Shown here: positions 54,384 to 63,521 of the stretch, in pieces | Layout of the letters: the number at the start of each line of letters is the position of its first letter | Numbering within the stretch: position 1 is the first letter of the stretch | Source: Candidatus Pelagibacter communis | Lineage (GTDB): Bacteria; Pseudomonadota; Alphaproteobacteria; Pelagibacterales; Pelagibacteraceae | Assembly: GCF_012932795.1 (NCBI RefSeq) | Contig: NZ_LANA01000001.1 | Coordinates: 1-64,000 of the forward strand | Reading direction: 5' to 3' | Length of the DNA stretch: 64,000 bases | The notes under the pieces: model-generated | Seen by the model: the letters and a program-made list of their open reading frames with translations, nothing else | Database searches by the model: none | Told to the model about the DNA's origin: nothing | Position numbers and translations under genes: made by a program

Positions 54384-55214
54384 TTGATGGAATTAAATTT
54401 ATATAAAATGATTAAAAATAAAAAAAAAAAAACAAAAACAAATAAGCCAAAGAAAATAGGTTTATTATTAAATAAAGTTTACGATAATTTTAAAAAAAAA
54501 CAAAAAAATAATGAAAAAAAAGAGATTAAACTTAGAGAAGATCAAATCAAAAAAGGATTAGAAAAAATCAAGTTAAAAGAAAAAGAATTGAAGGTTAAAG
54601 AAGAAGAAAATAAGAAAAAAGATGATTTTTATAGAAGAAAAGATGAAGAGTTGAGAAAAAAAGATCAGCAACTTCAATTAAAAGACGATGATTTGAGAGT
54701 TAAAGATGTAGAATTCAAAATTAAAGATAAAGAACAATTTTTAAAACAAGACGAATTAAGATTTAAAAATGAACAATTAAAAAAGGGTGAAACTGGTTTA
54801 AAAATAAAAGGAGATGAGCTCAATAAATTACAGAAAGAGCTTAAAAAAATAGAAATTCAATTAAATTTAACCAAAGAAGAACAGTCAAGAAAAGATATTA
54901 ATCTTAAGATAAGAGAAGAAGATCAAAAAAAGAAAGATCAAAAAGAATTGAAAAAGAAACTTAAGGAACAAAAGCTAAAAGATCAGGATGAAGAATTAAA
55001 AAAAGATTTAGAGGCAAAAAGAATAAAAGAATGGGAAGATAGATTTGATGAAGAGCAGAAACTTAGATTAGAAGAAGAAAAATTAAAAGATAATAGAATA
55101 AAACAAAGAGCACGATTAAGGCAAGTTATAGAAGAACAAGGTGATAAAAGTTTACAAGATGAATTAATTTCTAAACTTGAAGCTTTTGAAGTTGACAAAT
55201 CTAAAGAAAATTAA
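54384..55214 (+). CDS. Highly charged coiled-coil protein
   Basis: A 276-residue protein, about two-fifths Lys and Glu. Residues 84 to about 167 read as heptads on an xxKDxxL theme (RRKDEEL, RKKDQQL, QLKDDDL and so on), predicting one long coiled coil. There is no signal peptide or membrane segment. The N terminus is very basic (NKKKKTKTNKPKK), as in a nucleic-acid- or membrane-binding tail. No family is recognised; structural or nucleoid roles are guesses. It is followed 18 bases later by a small conserved protein. Confidence 0.7.
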   Translation: MMELNLYKMIKNKKKKTKTNKPKKIGLLLNKVYDNFKKKQKNNEKKEIKLREDQIKKGLEKIKLKEKELKVKEEENKKKDDFYRRKDEELRKKDQQLQLKDDDLRVKDVEFKIKDKEQFLKQDELRFKNEQLKKGETGLKIKGDELNKLQKELKKIEIQLNLTKEEQSRKDINLKIREEDQKKKDQKELKKKLKEQKLKDQDEELKKDLEAKRIKEWEDRFDEEQKLRLEEEKLKDNRIKQRARLRQVIEEQGDKSLQDELISKLEAFEVDKSKEN

Positions 55215-55232
55215 AAAACAATTTTAGTTAAG

Positions 55233-55460
55233 GTGAACAAAGAAAACGCAAGTAAACTGTGGAAAACGATACAGGAAGCTGGCGATTATTTACTAAGTGG
55301 ATTACCCGACCACCCAAATCATCCTAAGGGCCGTAACCCATACGCTCATGTTGCAATATGTGTCAAAGAGAAGTTTGGTAACTCTTATAAAGATATCCCT
55401 GATGAAAAATTTAATGAAGTTTTAAAATATATTCAATTTCTTAAAGAAAATCCAAGCTAG
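55233..55460 (+). CDS. Small conserved protein of unknown function
   Basis: A 75-residue soluble protein starting at GTG, with an AAGG ribosome site just before it. It contains GLPDHPNHPKGRNPYAHVAI and KEKFGNSYKDIPDEKFNEVL, which look like a conserved compact helical domain with several Pro and His residues. No family recognised. It may be cotranscribed with the coiled-coil gene and converges on the threonine aldolase. Confidence 0.7.
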   Translation: MNKENASKLWKTIQEAGDYLLSGLPDHPNHPKGRNPYAHVAICVKEKFGNSYKDIPDEKFNEVLKYIQFLKENPS

Positions 55461-56506
55461 CTTTTAGAAAGAGTTTCTAAAAGTTGATCAACATCACTCT
55501 CTTTGGTGTTCCAAGCAGCTACAAGTCTTACCGCTTTTCCATCTAGCTCTTCTTGATTCATTTTATAACCTTCTGAATTCAGATGCTTAATAATAGGTTT
55601 TGGAAATTTAGCAAATACTTCATTAGCTTCAGTTGGATAAGCTAATTCAATATTTGAATTTGATTTTAAGCCTTCACTTAATTTTTTTCCCATCTTATTT
55701 GCATGTTTTGCATTTCTTAACCAAATATCATTTGATATATAAGCCTCTAGTTGAGCTGAAACAAATCTCATCTTTGAAAGCAAATGGCCTGATCTTTTCA
55801 TTAAGAAAGGAAGGTTTCCTACTAATTCTGGTTTAAAAAATATAATCGCTTCTGCAGCAATACATCCATTTTTTGTAGCACCAAAAGATAAAACATCTAT
55901 TCCTGACTTCCATGTCATTTCAGCAGGAGTTGCACCAAGTGAGACTAATGCGTTAGCAAATCTTGCCCCGTCCATATGCATTTTTAGATTATGTTTATGT
56001 GCAGTTTCAGATATAGCTGTAATTTCATCTAACTGATAAACTTCACCTGTTTCACATAATTGAGTAATACTCACTACAGAAGGTTGTGTGTGGTGTACGA
56101 TACCAGCTCCCCCAATATTTTCGGATAACTCTTCTGGTGTAAATTTTCCATTAATTCCATTTAAAGGTACAAGTTTTGCACCCCCTGTATAAAATTCAGG
56201 AGCTCCACATTCATCTGTATTGATGTGTGAATGTTTGTGACAATAAATACTTCCAAAAACTGGTGTCATTGCTGATAAAGCTAAAGCATTTGCGGCTGTA
56301 CCTGACGCAGTTGGATAAACAATTACATCTTTTTCAAAAATTTCAGAAAACTTATTTTGTAAGTTCGTTGACCACTCATCATTACCATATGGAGTGCTGT
56401 CTCCTTCATTAGCTTTTATGATTGCATCTAAAACTTCAGGACATGCACCCGCTACATTATCAGAGGCAAATTTAACACGCTCTCGTTTTGTTTTAATTTT
56501 TGCCAT
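55457..56506 (-). CDS. ltaE: Low-specificity L-threonine aldolase
   Basis: A 349-residue PLP enzyme: FASDNVAGACPEVLDAI at the N terminus, LKMHMDGARFANALV with the PLP-binding Asp, and VLSFGATKNGCIAAEAI with the PLP lysine. It cleaves threonine or allo-threonine to glycine and acetaldehyde. SAR11 cells need glycine or a precursor, so glycine production fits. It is the last gene of a four-gene operon with the amidinotransferase and creatinase (two-base gap). Confidence 0.93.
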   Translation of the reverse strand: MAKIKTKRERVKFASDNVAGACPEVLDAIIKANEGDSTPYGNDEWSTNLQNKFSEIFEKDVIVYPTASGTAANALALSAMTPVFGSIYCHKHSHINTDECGAPEFYTGGAKLVPLNGINGKFTPEELSENIGGAGIVHHTQPSVVSITQLCETGEVYQLDEITAISETAHKHNLKMHMDGARFANALVSLGATPAEMTWKSGIDVLSFGATKNGCIAAEAIIFFKPELVGNLPFLMKRSGHLLSKMRFVSAQLEAYISNDIWLRNAKHANKMGKKLSEGLKSNSNIELAYPTEANEVFAKFPKPIIKHLNSEGYKMNQEELDGKAVRLVAAWNTKESDVDQLLETLSKS

Positions 56507-56508
56507 AA

Positions 56509-57624
56509 CTATTGTTTTGGAAAGTAATCTTTTAACTCCCCTTCTCTATAAACATCTGCTGTGCAGCAGTGTAATCCTCCACCAAATGCATAAGCATCTC
56601 TCATGTCTACTGGGATAACTTCCATTCCTAATCTATCCAATTGATCAGCTTGATATACTTCACTTTTTTCAACACAAACTGTTTTTGGATCTAACACTAA
56701 AACATTCATCGAAAGCCAAGTTGAAGAATAACATAATGGTGGTGGCTCATTGTGTGCTGGTTGTGCACTATCAATAATTTCCCATCCATTATTTTCAAAA
56801 AGTTTTCTTTGTTCTTTTGGAAGTTTTCTTTGGGGGTTGTTAATGATCAAACCCTCTTTAATTGGTGTAAACGTTGCATCTATATGAATTGGATAAGGAT
56901 CACCTGGAAAATTGACCGCATGAACTCTATGATCTTTGTAATGTCTTTTAAGCCAATCAATCCCTTTTAAGTTTGTAGTAAAACCATGTTGAACAACTAA
57001 ATCCTTACCAAATCTTAAAACATCAGCAGCATCAAATAAAGGTTCTTCTTCTGTGGTTACAAAAAATTTATCTTCGGTCCATTTTAGTCTTTTTTGAATT
57101 CCTATTTTGTCAGATAGATAATCTTTTCTATAATCTGCATCAGTTAATCTTGGCTTTGGAGCTGACTCATGTTTCATATTAGGATCATCATCATAATATT
57201 TTTTTAATAAAGGCCTATAACAAAGATACTCAAACCATCTACATCTATAGCTCATCGTAGCCTCTAAAATTTCATTTCCTACTGTTAATAAAACATCTCT
57301 TGGAGGCATACATCCAAACATTGTGTCTGCTTCCCAATCTGGTGTTGAAGTTTTTTGATTAAAATTAATTGGGTCTGGTCTGTCTACTTTAATACCTCTT
57401 TTAATTAATATGTTGGAAAAATTATCAAGCAATTGATTTGCTTTATCAACTGTATCTTTTGTTCTTGGTCCAAATTGACCACGCATATCTGAGTCTTCTG
57501 GAACCTTGGCGTCTAATGCTGGTTCCGGTGCAGGAATACAAGTTCCATCTGCTTTACCAACAATTACATGTTTTAAAGGATCCCATTCATTCCAACTATT
57601 AACTATAGTTTTTATTTTACTCAT
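56509..57624 (-). CDS. gatM: Glycine amidinotransferase (AGAT) family enzyme
   Basis: A 371-residue amidinotransferase closely following animal GATM. The catalytic Cys353 is in GGGLHCCTADV, with H247 and D249 in PIHIDATF and D198 in FDAADVLRFG. Blocks RPDPINFNQKTSTPDWE and TMSYRCRWFEYLCYRP also match. It makes guanidinoacetate and ornithine from glycine and arginine, and the reaction is reversible. Paired with creatinase and threonine aldolase, either guanidinoacetate formation or its use as a glycine source is possible. Bacterial relatives may use other acceptors. Confidence 0.88.
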   Translation of the reverse strand: MSKIKTIVNSWNEWDPLKHVIVGKADGTCIPAPEPALDAKVPEDSDMRGQFGPRTKDTVDKANQLLDNFSNILIKRGIKVDRPDPINFNQKTSTPDWEADTMFGCMPPRDVLLTVGNEILEATMSYRCRWFEYLCYRPLLKKYYDDDPNMKHESAPKPRLTDADYRKDYLSDKIGIQKRLKWTEDKFFVTTEEEPLFDAADVLRFGKDLVVQHGFTTNLKGIDWLKRHYKDHRVHAVNFPGDPYPIHIDATFTPIKEGLIINNPQRKLPKEQRKLFENNGWEIIDSAQPAHNEPPPLCYSSTWLSMNVLVLDPKTVCVEKSEVYQADQLDRLGMEVIPVDMRDAYAFGGGLHCCTADVYREGELKDYFPKQ

Positions 57625-57627
57625 AAT

Positions 57628-58845
57628 TTATGATTTAATAATATTGTGTTCTGGACCAAAAGGAAATTTGGTAATATTTTCTACACTATCTTTTCCTAAA
57701 ACTAATATATCATGCTCCCTATAACCACCTGCTCCTGGAGTGCCTTCAGGTATCATGATCATTGGTTCCATAGAAACAACCATATTCTCCTCTAAAACAG
57801 TGTCAACATCCTCTCGCAATTCTAATCCAGCTTCTCTTCCGTAAAAATGAGATAATACACCAAATGAGTGACCATATCCAAATGTTCGGTAGTGGAGATA
57901 ACCAAGTTCCGCAAAAAGTTCATTTAATTCATGACAAATATTGGAACATTTTACACCTGGTTTAATTAATTCCAAACCTCTTTTATGAACTTTAATATTT
58001 GCTTCCCAAGCTTTCAAGGATGCATCATCGACGTTATCAATAAAAAGAGTTCTCTCAAGAGCCGTATAATACCCAGAAATCATAGGGAATGTATTCAAAG
58101 ATAGAATATCTCCTGATTTTAGTTTTCTATTAGTTTTTGGGTTATGTGCACCATCTGTATTCAGTCCTGATTGAAACCAAACCCAGGTATCCATGTATTC
58201 TGCATTAGGATATGTTTTTGCAATTTCACGTTCCATTTTATCTCTTCCTGCTATTGCAATTTCAAGCTCACTTTCTCCAACCTTAATATGTTTTTTTATT
58301 TCCTCGCCTCCAAGATCAGCTATTCTTGCTCCATTTTTAATAATTTTTATTTCTTCAGCTGACTTAATCATTCTAAGTTGCATCAAACTCTTTGACACAT
58401 CACTGAAGATTGAAAATGTAAAAATAGAAATTAGTTTTTCTTTAATGTCTAAAGTTACATGATCGTTCTCAATACCAATGTTTTTTGGTGGTTCATCTCT
58501 ACCTACAATTGAAACTATTGCTTTTAAAAAATTATCTCTTTTCCAATCAGTAAATATCACATTATCACAATGCGATCTTCTCCAAGGTTGACTGGCATCT
58601 ATATTAGCTGAAATTGTTGAGATTTTATCAGAAGTTACAACACAACCATAAGGTCTTCCAAAAGAACAATAGATAAAGCCTGTGTAATAAGCAATATTAT
58701 GCATTGAAGTTAAAATAACCATATCTAGATTATTTTTACTCATTATGATTCTTAAATTATTTAATCTTCTTTGGTATTCTTGATCTGTAAAAGGAAGTTT
58801 TGCTTTATCGCCATTTTTGAGAGTAAAAAAATCTGGTCTTTCCAT
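57628..58845 (-). CDS. Creatinase (creatine amidinohydrolase)
   Basis: A 405-residue M24-fold enzyme matching Pseudomonas creatinase along its length. Counterparts of its active-site residues are present: F62 and R64 in CSFGRPY, H234 in TDGAHNP (H232), E264 in ALERTLF (E262), R337 in FYGREAG (R335) and E360 in VSMEPMI (E358). Aminopeptidase metal ligands are absent, as in creatinase. It hydrolyses creatine to sarcosine and urea. A guanidinoacetate-type substrate is possible given the amidinotransferase three bases downstream. A DMT permease lies five bases upstream. Confidence 0.92.
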   Translation of the reverse strand: MERPDFFTLKNGDKAKLPFTDQEYQRRLNNLRIIMSKNNLDMVILTSMHNIAYYTGFIYCSFGRPYGCVVTSDKISTISANIDASQPWRRSHCDNVIFTDWKRDNFLKAIVSIVGRDEPPKNIGIENDHVTLDIKEKLISIFTFSIFSDVSKSLMQLRMIKSAEEIKIIKNGARIADLGGEEIKKHIKVGESELEIAIAGRDKMEREIAKTYPNAEYMDTWVWFQSGLNTDGAHNPKTNRKLKSGDILSLNTFPMISGYYTALERTLFIDNVDDASLKAWEANIKVHKRGLELIKPGVKCSNICHELNELFAELGYLHYRTFGYGHSFGVLSHFYGREAGLELREDVDTVLEENMVVSMEPMIMIPEGTPGAGGYREHDILVLGKDSVENITKFPFGPEHNIIKS

Positions 58846-58850
58846 CTTAA

Positions 58851-59756
58851 TTAATTTAATGCAATGAATCTTCTATTGGTTTTAATAGTAAGACTATAAT
58901 AAATAATAGACATGAAAAGAAAGAAACCACCTATAATAGTATTAGTTGAAGGTATTTCATTAATTCCTAAAAATGGTACCCACACCCAAAAAATTCCACC
59001 AATAACTTCCATTAGTGATAGTAAGGTAAGCTCTGCTGCTGGTATAGCTTTTGACCCTATGGAATATAAAATCAAACCCATACAGACTAAAGTTCCATGA
59101 AAAGAAAATAAAGCACTATTATAACTCGTTGATAAAAAAACCATATCATTACTTAAAATAATTATTACTGAAACTGCAACACAAAAAAATCCAGCAAAAG
59201 CAACTGTAGTAAATTTTGGTGTTTCTTTTCTCCATCTTAAGGTTACTGAAAAAACTGAAAAACCAATTGATGAAATCATTCCAAATACAAGACCTAGTAG
59301 AGAGCTTTTTTGAGTATTCCCCAAAGCTATAATTACAATCCCAACAGTTGCAATAATAATTGCTACCCAAACATTAATTGATATTCTTTCTTTCAAAAAT
59401 AAAAAACCTAATAACGCAGTAAAAAATGGCATTGCTGCCAAACAAAGTAAAGTAATAGCAGCACTTGTATTGGTAATTGAATATATAAATGTGATCATAG
59501 CAACCCCAAGTCCAGTACCACCAATAATACCTGATATTCCTATTCTAAAATAATTTTTATAAAAATTTTTTCCTTCTTCAAAAAAAAGATACAAGTTAAT
59601 TACTAAAAAAATTGTTAATCCACGAGCAAAAATATACTGCCAAGGAACTAAATTTGGATCGTTCATATATCTAACTACTAAAGGACCAAAAGACCAAATT
59701 ATACCAGCCATTAAAACAACAGGTATGGCTATTTTATCGTTTTTTAATTCAATCAT
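58851..59756 (-). CDS. DMT-family (EamA) permease of the creatinase operon
   Basis: A 301-residue ten-helix EamA transporter (MAGIIWSFGPLVVRYMNDPN, AMPFFTALLGFLFLKERI, IPAAELTLLSLMEVIGGIFW). It opens the leftward creatinase-amidinotransferase-threonine aldolase unit. Import of creatine, export of a product, or an unrelated amino-acid role are all possible; sequence does not decide. Confidence 0.88.
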   Translation of the reverse strand: MIELKNDKIAIPVVLMAGIIWSFGPLVVRYMNDPNLVPWQYIFARGLTIFLVINLYLFFEEGKNFYKNYFRIGISGIIGGTGLGVAMITFIYSITNTSAAITLLCLAAMPFFTALLGFLFLKERISINVWVAIIIATVGIVIIALGNTQKSSLLGLVFGMISSIGFSVFSVTLRWRKETPKFTTVAFAGFFCVAVSVIIILSNDMVFLSTSYNSALFSFHGTLVCMGLILYSIGSKAIPAAELTLLSLMEVIGGIFWVWVPFLGINEIPSTNTIIGGFFLFMSIIYYSLTIKTNRRFIALN

Positions 59757-59807: not shown

Positions 59808-61052
59808 TCAAAAAAAATTTTTGTTTGGTCCAATGGCAGAAAAGCAATCAATTAACTCTCCTTTTTTAAATTTAGACTGTCCATCTTTAAATAGACCCCA
59901 TACATTTGACTGAACAAATGATTTAATTTTGAAGGATTCTTGACCTTTTAAAACCTCCAGTTCTAATTTTCCATCTTTGGTTGAAGTTAGTCTTGCTTTT
60001 AAAAATCGAATTATTTCTTTATTTTTAGAGTAATCATTTTTCAGTTTAGCTTTAAATGGTTTTTCAGCCTTAACACCTAGAATATTAAGGAGATAAGGAT
60101 AAACAAAAAATCTAAAACAAGCTGAAGATGAAATAGGATTTCCAGGAAGGCCAAATATTGCTTTTTCAAAACCTTTTAATTTTGCAAATAGAATTGGTTT
60201 GCCTGGTCTTATTAAAACTCCTTTAAAAAAATTAGATAAATTTAACTTTTTAACAACGTATGGAACAAAGTCGTATTTTCCAGCGGAAACAGCTCCAGAA
60301 GTAATTATAATATCTATTTTTGATTTAATACTTTTCTCTATTTGCTTTTTAAAAAGTTTTGTGTCTTTATCTCTTAAAATTCCACCATCAATAAAATTAA
60401 ACATAAAATTTTTAGATAGTGAATTTATGTAATGACTGTTAGAATTTCTAACTTTCCAATTAACAATTTTTTTATTATTAGAAATTTCATTTCCAGTTGA
60501 AAAAAATAAAATATTTGGTTTTTTTTTAACTTTTATCTTTGTAACTCCTAATGTTTTAAAAGCCAAAACATGTGCTGATTGGATGATTGATCCTTTTTTT
60601 ATTATTAAATCTTTCTTTTTATAATCAGAGCCTGCAAATCTTATATGTTGGTTTTTTTTTATTTTTTTGTTTATTTGAATATATTTTTTATCTCTATTAA
60701 AAATTATTTTTTCAATAGGAATGATTGTGTCAAAGCCTCTAGGTATAAGTGCACCAGTCATCACTTCAACTGTTACATTCTTTTTAATTTTATTTATTAT
60801 TGGGTTATCTCCAGCAGATATAGTTTTTAAAATTTTGAAGTTTTGAGAGTTTTTTTTATTTAACTTGTTTGTTTCGTTAGAATTAATGGCAAATCCATCG
60901 AATGCAGCATTTGTAGCTGCTGGATAATTTACAGTTGAATAGATATCTGATACATTAATTCTATTTAATGCCTTTGATGATTTTATAATTTCATCTTGAA
61001 TTTTAATTTTTGATTTTATTAAAATTTTCTTAGCTTTTTTATAATTAATCAT
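59808..61052 (-). CDS. moeA: Molybdopterin molybdotransferase
   Basis: A 414-residue MoeA: NYPAATNAAFDGFAINSNET at the N terminus, MTGALIPRGFDTIIPIEKI, the catalytic region TSGAVSAGKYDFVPYVV and GLPGNPISSSACF. It inserts molybdate into adenylated molybdopterin. It is paired with mobA one base upstream, and the formate dehydrogenase genes lie divergently, giving a reason for the cofactor. Confidence 0.94.
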   Translation of the reverse strand: MINYKKAKKILIKSKIKIQDEIIKSSKALNRINVSDIYSTVNYPAATNAAFDGFAINSNETNKLNKKNSQNFKILKTISAGDNPIINKIKKNVTVEVMTGALIPRGFDTIIPIEKIIFNRDKKYIQINKKIKKNQHIRFAGSDYKKKDLIIKKGSIIQSAHVLAFKTLGVTKIKVKKKPNILFFSTGNEISNNKKIVNWKVRNSNSHYINSLSKNFMFNFIDGGILRDKDTKLFKKQIEKSIKSKIDIIITSGAVSAGKYDFVPYVVKKLNLSNFFKGVLIRPGKPILFAKLKGFEKAIFGLPGNPISSSACFRFFVYPYLLNILGVKAEKPFKAKLKNDYSKNKEIIRFLKARLTSTKDGKLELEVLKGQESFKIKSFVQSNVWGLFKDGQSKFKKGELIDCFSAIGPNKNFF

Positions 61053-61053
61053 T

Positions 61054-61665
61054 TTAATTTTTTTTTAGTATTTTTTTTGCTTCTTCTAAATCTTCTTTGG
61101 TATTTATATTAAAAAAAGGATCAAATTTTTTAGGCTCTATATCAATTGTTTTTACTCCTATTTTATTTGCCCAATCCTCTACTTTCCTAAAATTATTATT
61201 AATCAAATCATTTTCTAATGGTTTTAATAATTTAATTGACCATAAACCAAAAATATTGTGCCTTTTATTGTTTGATTTAATAAAATAGAGCAAGCTACCT
61301 TTCGTTTTAATTCTTTTTTGATATTCATCAATAATTGAGATTTCAAAAAAGGGTGTGTCTGATGGAAATGTTGCAATCCATTGATACGATTTTTGATTTT
61401 CTTTAACCCATTTCATTGCACTTAAAACCCCTGCTAATGGTCCAAAGTCATCAAAACAATCAGGAATTATTGTTACATTTTTTATTTTTTTTGTATCTAA
61501 ACTGAGGCTTGAGACAATAAGTATCTCTTCATATCTATTACTAATTTTTGATAAAACATGCTCTAACAATGTTTTATCACCAAGTTTTGTCTGGTTTTTA
61601 TCTTCACCAAATCTCTTTGATTTTCCGCCCGCTAGCACAACAGCTAAAATATTGTTATCTTCCAT
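61054..61665 (-). CDS. mobA: Molybdenum cofactor guanylyltransferase
   Basis: About 203 residues from the ATG at 61665 (MEDNN); an upstream ATG at 61683 adds six. The nucleotidyltransferase signature is LAVVLAGGKSKRFGEDKNQ, with PDCFDDFGPLAGVLSAMKW and ATFPSDTPFF carrying the metal-binding residues. It adds GMP to Mo-molybdopterin for the bis-MGD cofactor used by formate dehydrogenase. Divergent from the NifU-like gene. Confidence 0.93.
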   Translation of the reverse strand: MEDNNILAVVLAGGKSKRFGEDKNQTKLGDKTLLEHVLSKISNRYEEILIVSSLSLDTKKIKNVTIIPDCFDDFGPLAGVLSAMKWVKENQKSYQWIATFPSDTPFFEISIIDEYQKRIKTKGSLLYFIKSNNKRHNIFGLWSIKLLKPLENDLINNNFRKVEDWANKIGVKTIDIEPKKFDPFFNINTKEDLEEAKKILKKN

Positions 61666-61707
61666 AAATAAAATATAAAACATTAATCTCTTAATTAAAG
61701 AATTATA

Positions 61708-62650: not shown

Positions 62651-62680
62651 ATTTAGCCAGTTTAAATATACTGGCTAAAT
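62651..62680. promoter_or_regulatory. Perfect 10-bp dyad over the fdhD start codon
   Basis: ATTTAGCCAG (62651-62660) and CTGGCTAAAT (62671-62680) are exact reverse complements around a ten-base AT-rich centre. The right arm includes the first two bases of the fdhD ATG. As RNA it would fold into a hairpin hiding the start codon. As DNA it looks like an operator. No Shine-Dalgarno sequence is visible between it and the ATG. Confidence 0.6.
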
Positions 62681-63521
62681 GAATTCTAATTATAAAATCA
62701 TAAAATTTAGATCTAATAACTCGAAAGAGGTTAGTGATCAAATATCCATTGAAGAGCCATTGGAAATAATACTCAAATATAAAGATAAAGAAAATTGGAT
62801 AGAAAATACTATATCCATTACGATGAGAACACCTGGGGATGATGAGGATTTAGTTACTGGCTTTCTTTTTAATGAAAGAGTAATTGAAAAAATTAGCCAT
62901 ATAGAAAATATTGTAGCTAGTGGTGAACCTGTTGGACAATATAAATTACAAAATAAAGTTATTATTACAATAAACAATTCAGAGAATATAGACATCGATA
63001 AAATTAAAAGAAATTTTTTGACTAATTCATCATGTGGTGTGTGCGGAAAAACTTCTCTCGAATCTTTAGAAATTATTAAGAAAGATAAAATATTGAAATC
63101 TATACCTAAAATACATCATGAAATTGTAATGAAATCTCCAGATATATTAAAACAAAAGCAATCTGAGTTTTCAAAAACTGGTGGAATTCATGCCAGCGGG
63201 TTATTTAGGGCTAATGGAGAAATTATTGCTGTAAAAGAAGATGTAGGCCGACATAATGCCTTAGACAAACTAATTGGATTCGTTTTAAAACAAAATTTAC
63301 TTGATAATAGCTCTCAATTTCTAACCTGCTCTGGCCGACTTAATTTTGATTTAGTTCAAAAAGCTCTTATGGCTAATATAGGTGTCTTAATTGGTGTGGG
63401 TGCGCCAACCAGTCTCGCTATAGATTTAGCTAATAAGTTTGACATGACATTAGTTGGCTTTGTAAAAGAAGGTAGCTTTAATATTTATAGTAATAGTGAA
63501 AGAATTATAATAAAAAAATAA
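62679..63521 (+). CDS. fdhD: Formate dehydrogenase accessory sulfurtransferase FdhD
   Basis: A 280-residue FdhD, which carries sulfur from cysteine desulfurase to the Mo-bis-MGD cofactor of formate dehydrogenase. Motifs: MRTPGDDEDLVTGFLFNE, the active cysteine loop SSCGVCGKTSLE, GGIHASGLFRANG and EDVGRHNALDKLIG. The ATG is embedded in a perfect dyad with no clear ribosome site. The formate dehydrogenase subunit follows 20 bases later. Confidence 0.96.
   Translation: MNSNYKIIKFRSNNSKEVSDQISIEEPLEIILKYKDKENWIENTISITMRTPGDDEDLVTGFLFNERVIEKISHIENIVASGEPVGQYKLQNKVIITINNSENIDIDKIKRNFLTNSSCGVCGKTSLESLEIIKKDKILKSIPKIHHEIVMKSPDILKQKQSEFSKTGGIHASGLFRANGEIIAVKEDVGRHNALDKLIGFVLKQNLLDNSSQFLTCSGRLNFDLVQKALMANIGVLIGVGAPTSLAIDLANKFDMTLVGFVKEGSFNIYSNSERIIIKK

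Follow-up and report, generated by a model that had tools for sequence, protein, structure and literature searches.

The window analysed here, a stretch of 64,000 nucleotides from Candidatus Pelagibacter communis (contig NZ_LANA01000001.1), carries on its minus strand, at 55457-59756, a compact cluster of four genes in the order EamA permease, creatinase, amidinotransferase and threonine aldolase. An earlier note on this DNA had described four minus-strand genes 2-5 bases apart, and both the order and the intergenic gaps (5, 3 and 2 bases, in gene order) were confirmed. The features of the region are as follows:

55457-56506, minus strand: L-threonine aldolase type enzyme, 349 aa, accessory gene; PF01212 at 200 bits
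56509-57624, minus strand: amidinotransferase of the AGAT family, 371 aa; Pfam ADI at 24.1 bits against a cut-off of 22.8
57628-58845, minus strand: creatinase (creatine amidinohydrolase), 405 aa, accessory gene; PF00557 and PF01321 above cut-off
58851-59756, minus strand: EamA permease, 301 aa; PF00892 at 59.9 bits against a cut-off of 28.2
59808-61052, minus strand: moeA, 51 bases upstream of the EamA gene on the same strand
61054-61683, minus strand: mobA, upstream of moeA, in a formate dehydrogenase neighbourhood
62679-63521, plus strand: fdhD

The moeA and mobA genes upstream on the same strand had not been mentioned in the earlier note; moeA possibly belongs to the same transcript as the four-gene cluster. 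A promoter and terminator scan gave a number of sites not above that in shuffled sequence, and no NCBIfam model reached its cut-off for any of the four cluster proteins.

By its two domains and its close identity to solved creatinases, the creatinase is a member of that family. It matches the solved creatine amidinohydrolases 7yto, 1chm and 1kp0 with E values of 8e-160 to 9e-148 and shares 57% of its residues with 1chm across an alignment of 398 positions. Every creatine-site residue tested is kept (F62, R64, H234, E264, R337 and E360), and these positions are conserved in 35-36 of the 36 collected creatinase ORFs, some genomes being counted twice. They correspond to the creatine-site residues F62, R64, H232, E262, R335 and E358 in P. 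putida numbering. Judged from these residues, creatine is a strong candidate for the substrate. The same six residues are found in the known bacterial route of creatine degradation by creatinase and sarcosine oxidase, from which the solved structures come, and sarcosine-oxidase-alpha genes are present in the genome. Unlike that system, the window creatinase has no creatininase or sarcosine oxidase among its neighbour genes and is instead linked to an AGAT-type amidinotransferase and an EamA permease.

The solved relative of the amidinotransferase is the human L-arginine:glycine amidinotransferase (AGAT; E 3e-86), with 45% identity over 351 aligned positions (vertebrate structures 1jdw and 1jdx). 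It shares every catalytic and arginine-side residue that was tested, namely D110, D198, H247, D249, R266, S300, S301 and C353, so that the active-site residues named in the earlier note for this enzyme (C353, H247, D198) and for the creatinase are all present. Their human counterparts are the catalytic Cys-His-Asp and arginine-side residues C407, H303, D254, D170, D305, R322, S354 and S355. Next to the active-site His, the human N300 and M302 are replaced by Y244 and I246, at positions said to bear on substrate choice. The resulting motif, DPYPIHIDA in place of the human DPNPMHIDA, occurs in 117 of 126 collected AGAT-like ORFs (some genomes twice). The reverse AGAT reaction with guanidinoacetate is plausible, and these two substitutions leave it unproven. 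The enzyme is filed as an AGAT-type amidinotransferase, not as a proven AGAT, with glycine as a putative amidino acceptor.

The closest solved chains to the threonine aldolase are 1v72, 7yvr, 9l9g and 5vye, of which 1v72 (named ‘Aldolase’), 7yvr and 5vye count as L-threonine aldolases. The low-specificity enzyme 4lnj is far more distant than 1v72, 7yvr and 5vye, and the low-specificity L-threonine aldolase model PRK10534.1 (an NCBIfam equivalog) scored 34.6 bits, below its cut-off of 312. The motif SFGATKNG contains Lys212, from its setting the probable PLP lysine. For the EamA permease, a protein of the drug/metabolite transporter (DMT) family, no solved relative was found by sequence. In 27 of 30 chosen genus loci an EamA gene lies directly 5' of the creatinase or amidinotransferase gene, and the three exceptions carry an amidinotransferase paralogue that is 75% identical.

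The amidinotransferase is a near-constant gene of the genus, being present in 72 of the 76 genus genomes searched. The creatinase was found in 44 of 247 family genomes, including 28 of the 76 in the genus. In all 32 family genomes with both genes they adjoin on the same strand, with match ends at most 23 bases apart, and this adjacency is therefore beyond chance. A close amidinotransferase was not found in 12 of the 44 creatinase genomes, some of them fragmentary, and 44 of the 72 amidinotransferase-bearing genus genomes lack the creatinase. Of the 37 family genomes with the threonine aldolase, 34 have it as the next gene 3' of the amidinotransferase. The three enzymes stand side by side in 14 of the 247 family genomes, so the cluster is not unique to this genome, and the outcome that the earlier note had named as refuting its proposal, adjacency of the four genes in this genome alone, did not arise.

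The idea that the four genes form one system was not upheld by the same data. Among the 72 amidinotransferase-bearing genus genomes, the creatinase is present in 28 and an adjacent aldolase in 34, and the two occur together in 14 against 13.2 expected (Fisher p 0.81, a descriptive value as the genomes are related). Creatinase and aldolase thus join the amidinotransferase core independently. When the two accessory genes are mapped on a tree of 121 amidinotransferase genes that share the DPYPIHIDA motif, the creatinase comes or goes at least 10 times and the aldolase at least 9 times; loci cut by contig ends count as absent here, some genomes appear twice, and the 7 independent pairs on supported branches are a number too small for a test. 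Only two of the four genes are a near-fixed pair.

In other SAR11 genera, the amidinotransferase, the creatinase or both head an operon that continues with an EutA-like gene, a DoeA-like M24 gene and a Pot-type ABC importer. This arrangement was observed at loci L090-L093, L095, L101-L104, L133 and L136, the operon being cut by contig ends at L095, L133 and L136. The binding protein of the importer has binders of polyamines, GABA and opines among its relatives, and the predicted structure of the PotD-like protein has a mean pLDDT of 46. A related order was found at L239 (amidinotransferase, agmatinase-family hydrolase, M24, PotA, PotD, PotB), while at L121 the amidinotransferase is followed by genes of the EutA, EutB and EutC types. 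The EutA-like and DoeA-like genes recall ectoine utilisation (EutABC, DoeA/EutD); they are absent from the window operon. The SAR11 genes at L091 scored 193.3 against 318 (EutA-like) and 464.8 against 613 (DoeA-like), below the NCBIfam equivalog cut-offs, and are probably related enzymes for another substrate.

The exchange of amidinotransferase and creatinase as head gene before an ABC importer favours a catabolic use of the amidinotransferase. The earlier note had kept a biosynthetic AGAT as the alternative, and we keep it as a rival that we judge unlikely. The enzyme would then convert glycine, partly supplied by the threonine aldolase, and arginine to guanidinoacetate and ornithine, EamA would export the product, and the creatinase would be an extra gene that deals with scavenged creatine. 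In favour of this reading, exporters are common among EamA proteins, and the aldolase, which can supply glycine, goes with the amidinotransferase and not with the creatinase. An EamA gene is also the immediate 3' neighbour of the amidinotransferase paralogue at L097 and at L099, the one at L099 being confirmed by a further scan, and one lies some 3 kb from a Photobacterium relative. Such a pathway is harder to reconcile with an amidinotransferase at the head of importer operons, it gives no clear reason for a creatinase between exporter and synthase, and it would spend glycine in SAR11, an odd use for cells reportedly short of glycine and dependent on outside glycine or serine precursors.

Outside the SAR11 family, within the class, the creatinase was present in 4 of 5 genomes with this amidinotransferase clade versus 39 of 375 without it (Fisher p 7e-4), a comparison that involves only two genera. 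In one of these outside genomes, G623, the two genes are adjacent and point away from each other, with about 300 bases between them. Among 22 named non-SAR11 amidinotransferase loci, several of them incomplete, none had a creatinase within 6 kb and only two had a Pot importer. The varied neighbour genes of these non-SAR11 clade members are consistent with another amine partner, such as taurine, beta-alanine, GABA or an ethanolamine derivative, in which case the locus would handle a different guanidino compound and glycine would be incidental. The widespread DPYPIHIDA motif points the same way, as does one paralogue that sits with TauD-like, HD-oxygenase and choline-dehydrogenase-like genes. 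Given the retention of all catalytic and arginine-side residues tested and the close creatinase coupling within SAR11, we regard this alternative as unlikely too, if slightly less so than the biosynthetic one.

With respect to glycine and nitrogen metabolism, genome G000 contains two matches to SoxA (sarcosine-oxidase-alpha) above cut-off, and urease was detected in none of 12 genomes. Glycine riboswitches are present elsewhere in these genomes, and none was found at the locus in the 12, the nearest lying 14-29 kb from the amidinotransferase gene; a glycine riboswitch at this locus was accordingly rejected. Ornithine cyclodeaminase was set aside as an ornithine sink, with a match in 3 of 12 genomes, above cut-off in one and none in G000. 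The earlier suggestion that each enzyme can end in glycine or sarcosine holds in part: a route from creatine through sarcosine to glycine appears feasible with the SoxA-type genes, and the reverse AGAT step is plausible, with Y244 and I246 counting against it. Which SAR11 sox operon encodes sarcosine oxidase has been called unclear (PMC3160333).

A further arrangement would account for the creatinase-amidinotransferase adjacency without a third enzyme. Here the amidinotransferase would use arginine and glycine to form guanidinoacetate, which the creatinase homologue would then hydrolyse, returning the glycine and releasing urea; the net conversion would be of arginine to ornithine and urea. 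We consider this arginase-like cycle very improbable, as the creatinase keeps its creatine-site residues, G000 already has two agmatinase-family hydrolases, and the creatinase is missing from so many amidinotransferase-bearing genus genomes (44 of 72).

The earlier note knew of no description of this gene set as one system; a literature search for amidinotransferase with SAR11 found no paper. A step from creatine to glycine in SAR11 is already in print: in the available part of Thompson et al. 2013 (PMC3686209), a SAR11 ‘Creatinase’ cluster is placed in a glycine betaine/creatine to glycine pathway and is listed as core in subgroup 1a. The proposal, as set out in that part of the paper, contains no amidinotransferase, aldolase or operon, and its ‘Creatinase’ may be another M24 protein, the window creatinase being in 28 of 76 genus genomes.

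Taken together, the cluster probably serves to degrade creatine and similar compounds rich in nitrogen to building blocks such as glycine. We tentatively prefer, at a little short of an even chance, a modular locus for guanidino-compound use and glycine supply with EamA and the AGAT-type amidinotransferase as its core. Accessory genes would slot around this core, the creatinase between EamA and amidinotransferase and the threonine aldolase after the amidinotransferase. The creatinase would convert creatine to sarcosine and urea, and an enzyme of the sarcosine-oxidase type from another part of the genome, suggested by the alpha-subunit genes, would carry sarcosine on to glycine. The amidinotransferase would move an amidino group between ornithine and a guanidino acid, the likeliest being guanidinoacetate or a compound much like it. 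Its likeliest direction would be the consumption of an imported guanidino compound to yield arginine and a free amine (glycine if the compound is guanidinoacetate). In a cell with no detectable urease, the nitrogens of the guanidino group would by such a transfer stay in arginine and escape loss as urea. The aldolase, going by its family, would produce glycine and acetaldehyde from threonine, and EamA may carry one of these small molecules. The more specific version, an AGAT-family enzyme run backwards as a catabolic ‘amidino salvage’ with creatinase and threonine aldolase as plug-in glycine suppliers, is possible and distinctly more doubtful.

The modular reading is supported by the complete adjacency in 32 genomes, the importer operons, the L239 order, the 4 of 5 genomes outside SAR11, the SoxA matches and the aldolase position 3' of the amidinotransferase (34 of 37). 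Against it stand the 0 of 22 and 2 of 22 non-SAR11 loci, the 12 creatinase genomes in which no close amidinotransferase was found, the independence of creatinase and aldolase, and the unclear sox operon; a simple glycine salvage is further opposed by N300Y and M302I, the lack of a glycine riboswitch at the locus and the frequent exporter role of EamA proteins.

Should the locus supply the cell with glycine and arginine out of creatine and guanidino acids, it would tie the growth of SAR11, one of the commonest kinds of cell in the ocean, to compounds that animals and plankton release, and would provide a gene marker for that flux. It would also represent a catabolic use of the AGAT-type enzyme family, which is known for biosynthesis. 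With the amidinotransferase present in 72 of 76 genus genomes, the direction in which it runs matters for our picture of how a major organism lives.

The operon runs from the permease to the aldolase and comprises the following features:

58851-59756, minus strand, EamA permease, 301 aa (Pfam EamA)
57628-58845, minus strand, creatinase, 405 aa (Pfam Creatinase_N and Peptidase_M24; solved creatine amidinohydrolases)
56509-57624, minus strand, amidinotransferase, 371 aa (weak Pfam arginine-deiminase/amidinotransferase match, 24.1 bits, cut-off 22.8; human AGAT)
55457-56506, minus strand, threonine aldolase type, 349 aa (Pfam Beta_elim_lyase; L-threonine aldolases 7yvr and 5vye, "Aldolase" 1v72)

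In the ORF scan, the successive gaps were 5, 3 and 2 bases, bearing out the earlier note's four minus-strand genes 2-5 bases apart, and moeA and mobA lie upstream of EamA on the same strand, 51 bases off. None of the four ORFs met a cut-off in the NCBIfam profile scan, and a sequence search found no solved relative of the permease; for the other three, solved relatives provide better naming than Pfam or NCBIfam. Convergent to the operon, a Lys/Glu-rich protein without a family match is encoded at 54384-55214 (counting the window, 13 of the 41 loci read hold relatives), and a small plus-strand open frame of ~77 codons (55227-55460), convergent with the aldolase gene, overlaps its stop codon. 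No RNA family reached the gathering score anywhere in the window.

In the printed alignments, the creatinase shares 57.3% identity with 1chm over 398 positions (its chain index is one below literature numbering), and the amidinotransferase shares 45.0% with human AGAT over 351. All the residues named in the earlier note were found. Creatinase F62, R64, H234, E264, R337 and E360, read directly on the window protein, are each kept in 35-36 of the 36 creatinase ORFs collected. Amidinotransferase D110, D198, H247, D249, R266, S300, S301 and C353 correspond to human D170, D254, H303, D305, R322, S354, S355 and C407, and the DPYPIHIDA motif occurs in 117 of 126 AGAT-like ORFs from the collected loci (some genomes are in the set twice). 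The aldolase carries an SFGATKNG motif with K212, probably the PLP lysine. The amidinotransferase differs from human AGAT at Y244 (N300) and I246 (M302), beside the active-site His, so glycine is a possible rather than a settled amine partner; use of another amine partner is a somewhat unlikely reading.

Among 247 genomes of the SAR11 family Pelagibacteraceae (E <= 0.001), the amidinotransferase matched in 85, including G006, with a 34%-identical relative only, and fragments in G011 and G016. Of these, 72 belong to the window's genus, where 4 of 76 genomes (G137, G200, G202, G232) gave no match. True creatinases, at no less than 59% identity (matches ranking after them, at 27% and below, were other M24 proteins and were dropped), are present in 44 family genomes, 28 of them in the genus. 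The amidinotransferase clade accompanies 32 of the 44, always as a same-strand neighbour, no more than 23 bases separating the ends of the two matches; creatinase comes first in 30, and the order is reversed in G010 and G118. It was not found in G006, G020, G038, G042, G068, G077, G087, G096, G104, G121, G122 and G130, some of which hold contig-end fragments. Threonine aldolase was detected in 37 of the 247 genomes, every one in the genus, and immediately follows the amidinotransferase gene in 34 (exceptions: G149 and partial genes in G214 and G232). The earlier note took adjacency in this genome only as grounds against a single system; the co-occurrence search instead returned the three enzymes together in 14 of the 247, against 13.2 expected if creatinase and aldolase joined the amidinotransferase independently (Fisher p 0.81, 72 genomes). 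The gene set is therefore real and recurring, yet not a unit: the single system proposed stands as to recurrence and falls as to unity. Its core is EamA plus amidinotransferase, with creatinase and aldolase as accessories.

We read 41 loci, the window and 40 chosen stretches. EamA lies directly 5' of creatinase or amidinotransferase in 27 of 30 genus loci; the exceptions, L096, L097 and L099, hold an amidinotransferase paralogue, 75-76% identical, with other neighbours. This second type, located elsewhere, belongs to G149, G078 and G083, respectively; on its 3' side, L097 and L099 have a further EamA gene, and TauD-like, PhnZ/TmpB-like HD oxygenase and choline-dehydrogenase-like genes are also beside it. 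A forward, biosynthetic amidinotransferase, the earlier note's alternative, would suit EamA as the usual partner, with an EamA gene also found close to the paralogue as well as in Photobacterium, and an aldolase, a glycine source, that goes with the amidinotransferase and not with creatinase; we consider it unlikely.

In most genus loci, the block adjoins formate oxidation genes. Some have an fdh-type set that includes fdhD, mobA and moeA, others an NAD formate dehydrogenase encoded by a single gene (660 bits against a cut-off of 329); across L066-L089 the two alternate between genomes on the upstream side of EamA. In other SAR11 genera, operons are headed by amidinotransferase (L091, L092, L093, L095), creatinase (L101-L104, L136) or both (L090, L133), followed by an EutA-like gene; contigs that reach further show a DoeA-like M24 gene next and then a Pot-type ABC importer. 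The L094 stretch stops right after the amidinotransferase, and in L100 EamA precedes creatinase with no amidinotransferase present. The EutA-like (193, cut-off 318) and DoeA-like (465, cut-off 613) genes score beneath both NCBIfam cut-offs and are thus relatives of the ectoine utilisation enzymes, not those enzymes themselves. The importer binding protein has its best solved relatives in 8jv1, which is named spermidine/putrescine-binding, in a GABA sensor, and in proteins that bind polyamines, agropine or mannopine.

In the class Alphaproteobacteria, 12 of 385 genomes carry the amidinotransferase (E <= 1e-20), five of them close ones beyond the family (62-78%; G546, G623, G609, G532, G406). 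Creatinase occurs in four of these five against 39 of the 375 other genomes beyond the family (Fisher p 7e-4, though just two genera supply the four); the two genes are divergent with ~300 bases between in G623 and on separate contigs in G546, G609 and G532. In G406 (L121), EutA, EutB and EutC type genes follow the amidinotransferase. Among the best 80 of 570 relatives in a wider genome scan, none of 22 loci without a Pelagibacter name has creatinase within 6 kb (several end at contig ends), and two, L231 from Filomicrobium and L239, have Pot importer genes; L239 also holds a hydrolase of the agmatinase family, together with an M24 gene that is 24% identical to the DoeA-like one. On a Photobacterium plasmid, a 56% relative lies downstream of an AraC-type regulator, a sodium:solute symporter and an EamA gene. 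Viral contigs (L139-L218, 80 retained of 90 loci) carry AGAT-like genes, distant at 25-33% identity in 79 loci and at 56% in one; such genes also occur in Campylobacter, Enterococcus and Synechococcus phage records.

The importer operons, in which amidinotransferase and creatinase occupy the same place, the hydrolase company in L239 and the genome-level company with creatinase outside SAR11 favour a catabolic amidinotransferase. We tentatively prefer, at just short of even confidence, a guanidino-compound/glycine locus whose amidinotransferase would run towards arginine. Its firmest step, judged from sequence, would be creatinase converting creatine to sarcosine and urea, and sarcosine would then yield glycine. 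The glycine-salvage reading is partly supported, as a recurring modular SAR11 locus and not a fixed unit.

In 12 chosen genomes, SoxA exceeded its cut-off in all, with two copies in the window's genome (SoxA subunit only); PMC3160333 regards the assignment of the SAR11 sox operons to sarcosine oxidase or N-methylglutamate dehydrogenase as unclear. An arginase-like cycle is very improbable; the arginase family is present in all 12, the two members in the window's genome both above the agmatinase cut-off, and ornithine cyclodeaminase passed its cut-off in one, not the window's. Urease alpha was found in 0 of 12 (the control matched in 4 of 14). In L302 (G000:C2:14000-23500), within the window's genome, where no urease was detected, an agmatinase-family gene lies by aldehyde dehydrogenase, NCS1-type permease, ureidoglycolate lyase and allantoicase genes. 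Glycine riboswitches occur in all 12 genomes, never at the amidinotransferase locus; the nearest is 13.8-28.7 kb from that gene, so the locus is not under this switch, though in the same wider region. In the window's genome, a tandem riboswitch (G000:C1:79938-80095) precedes a GcvT-like gene, 22.3 kb away. G002 falls within the same 14-29 kb although its amidinotransferase sits in another operon.

Creatine in seawater is the subject of Wawrik 2017, and SAR11 is reported to depend on outside glycine or serine precursors (Tripp 2009). The earlier note knew of no description of the gene set as one system; part of it, creatine to glycine, was already suggested in PMC3686209, which lists a SAR11 "Creatinase" cluster and reports genes turning glycine betaine and creatine into glycine as over-represented in the Red Sea. 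Within open-licence literature, this paper alone pairs Pelagibacter with creatinase, PMC11812461 is the second to pair SAR11 with it, and none was found pairing amidinotransferase or glycine amidinotransferase with SAR11, which does not prove novelty. PMC3160333 describes the sarcosine oxidases of SAR11 and its fdh-mobA-moeA region, with no occurrence of the string "creatin"; PMC11366302 proposes creatine use for one AEGEAN169 clade, and PMC11360552 reports a viral guanidinoacetate N-methyltransferase.
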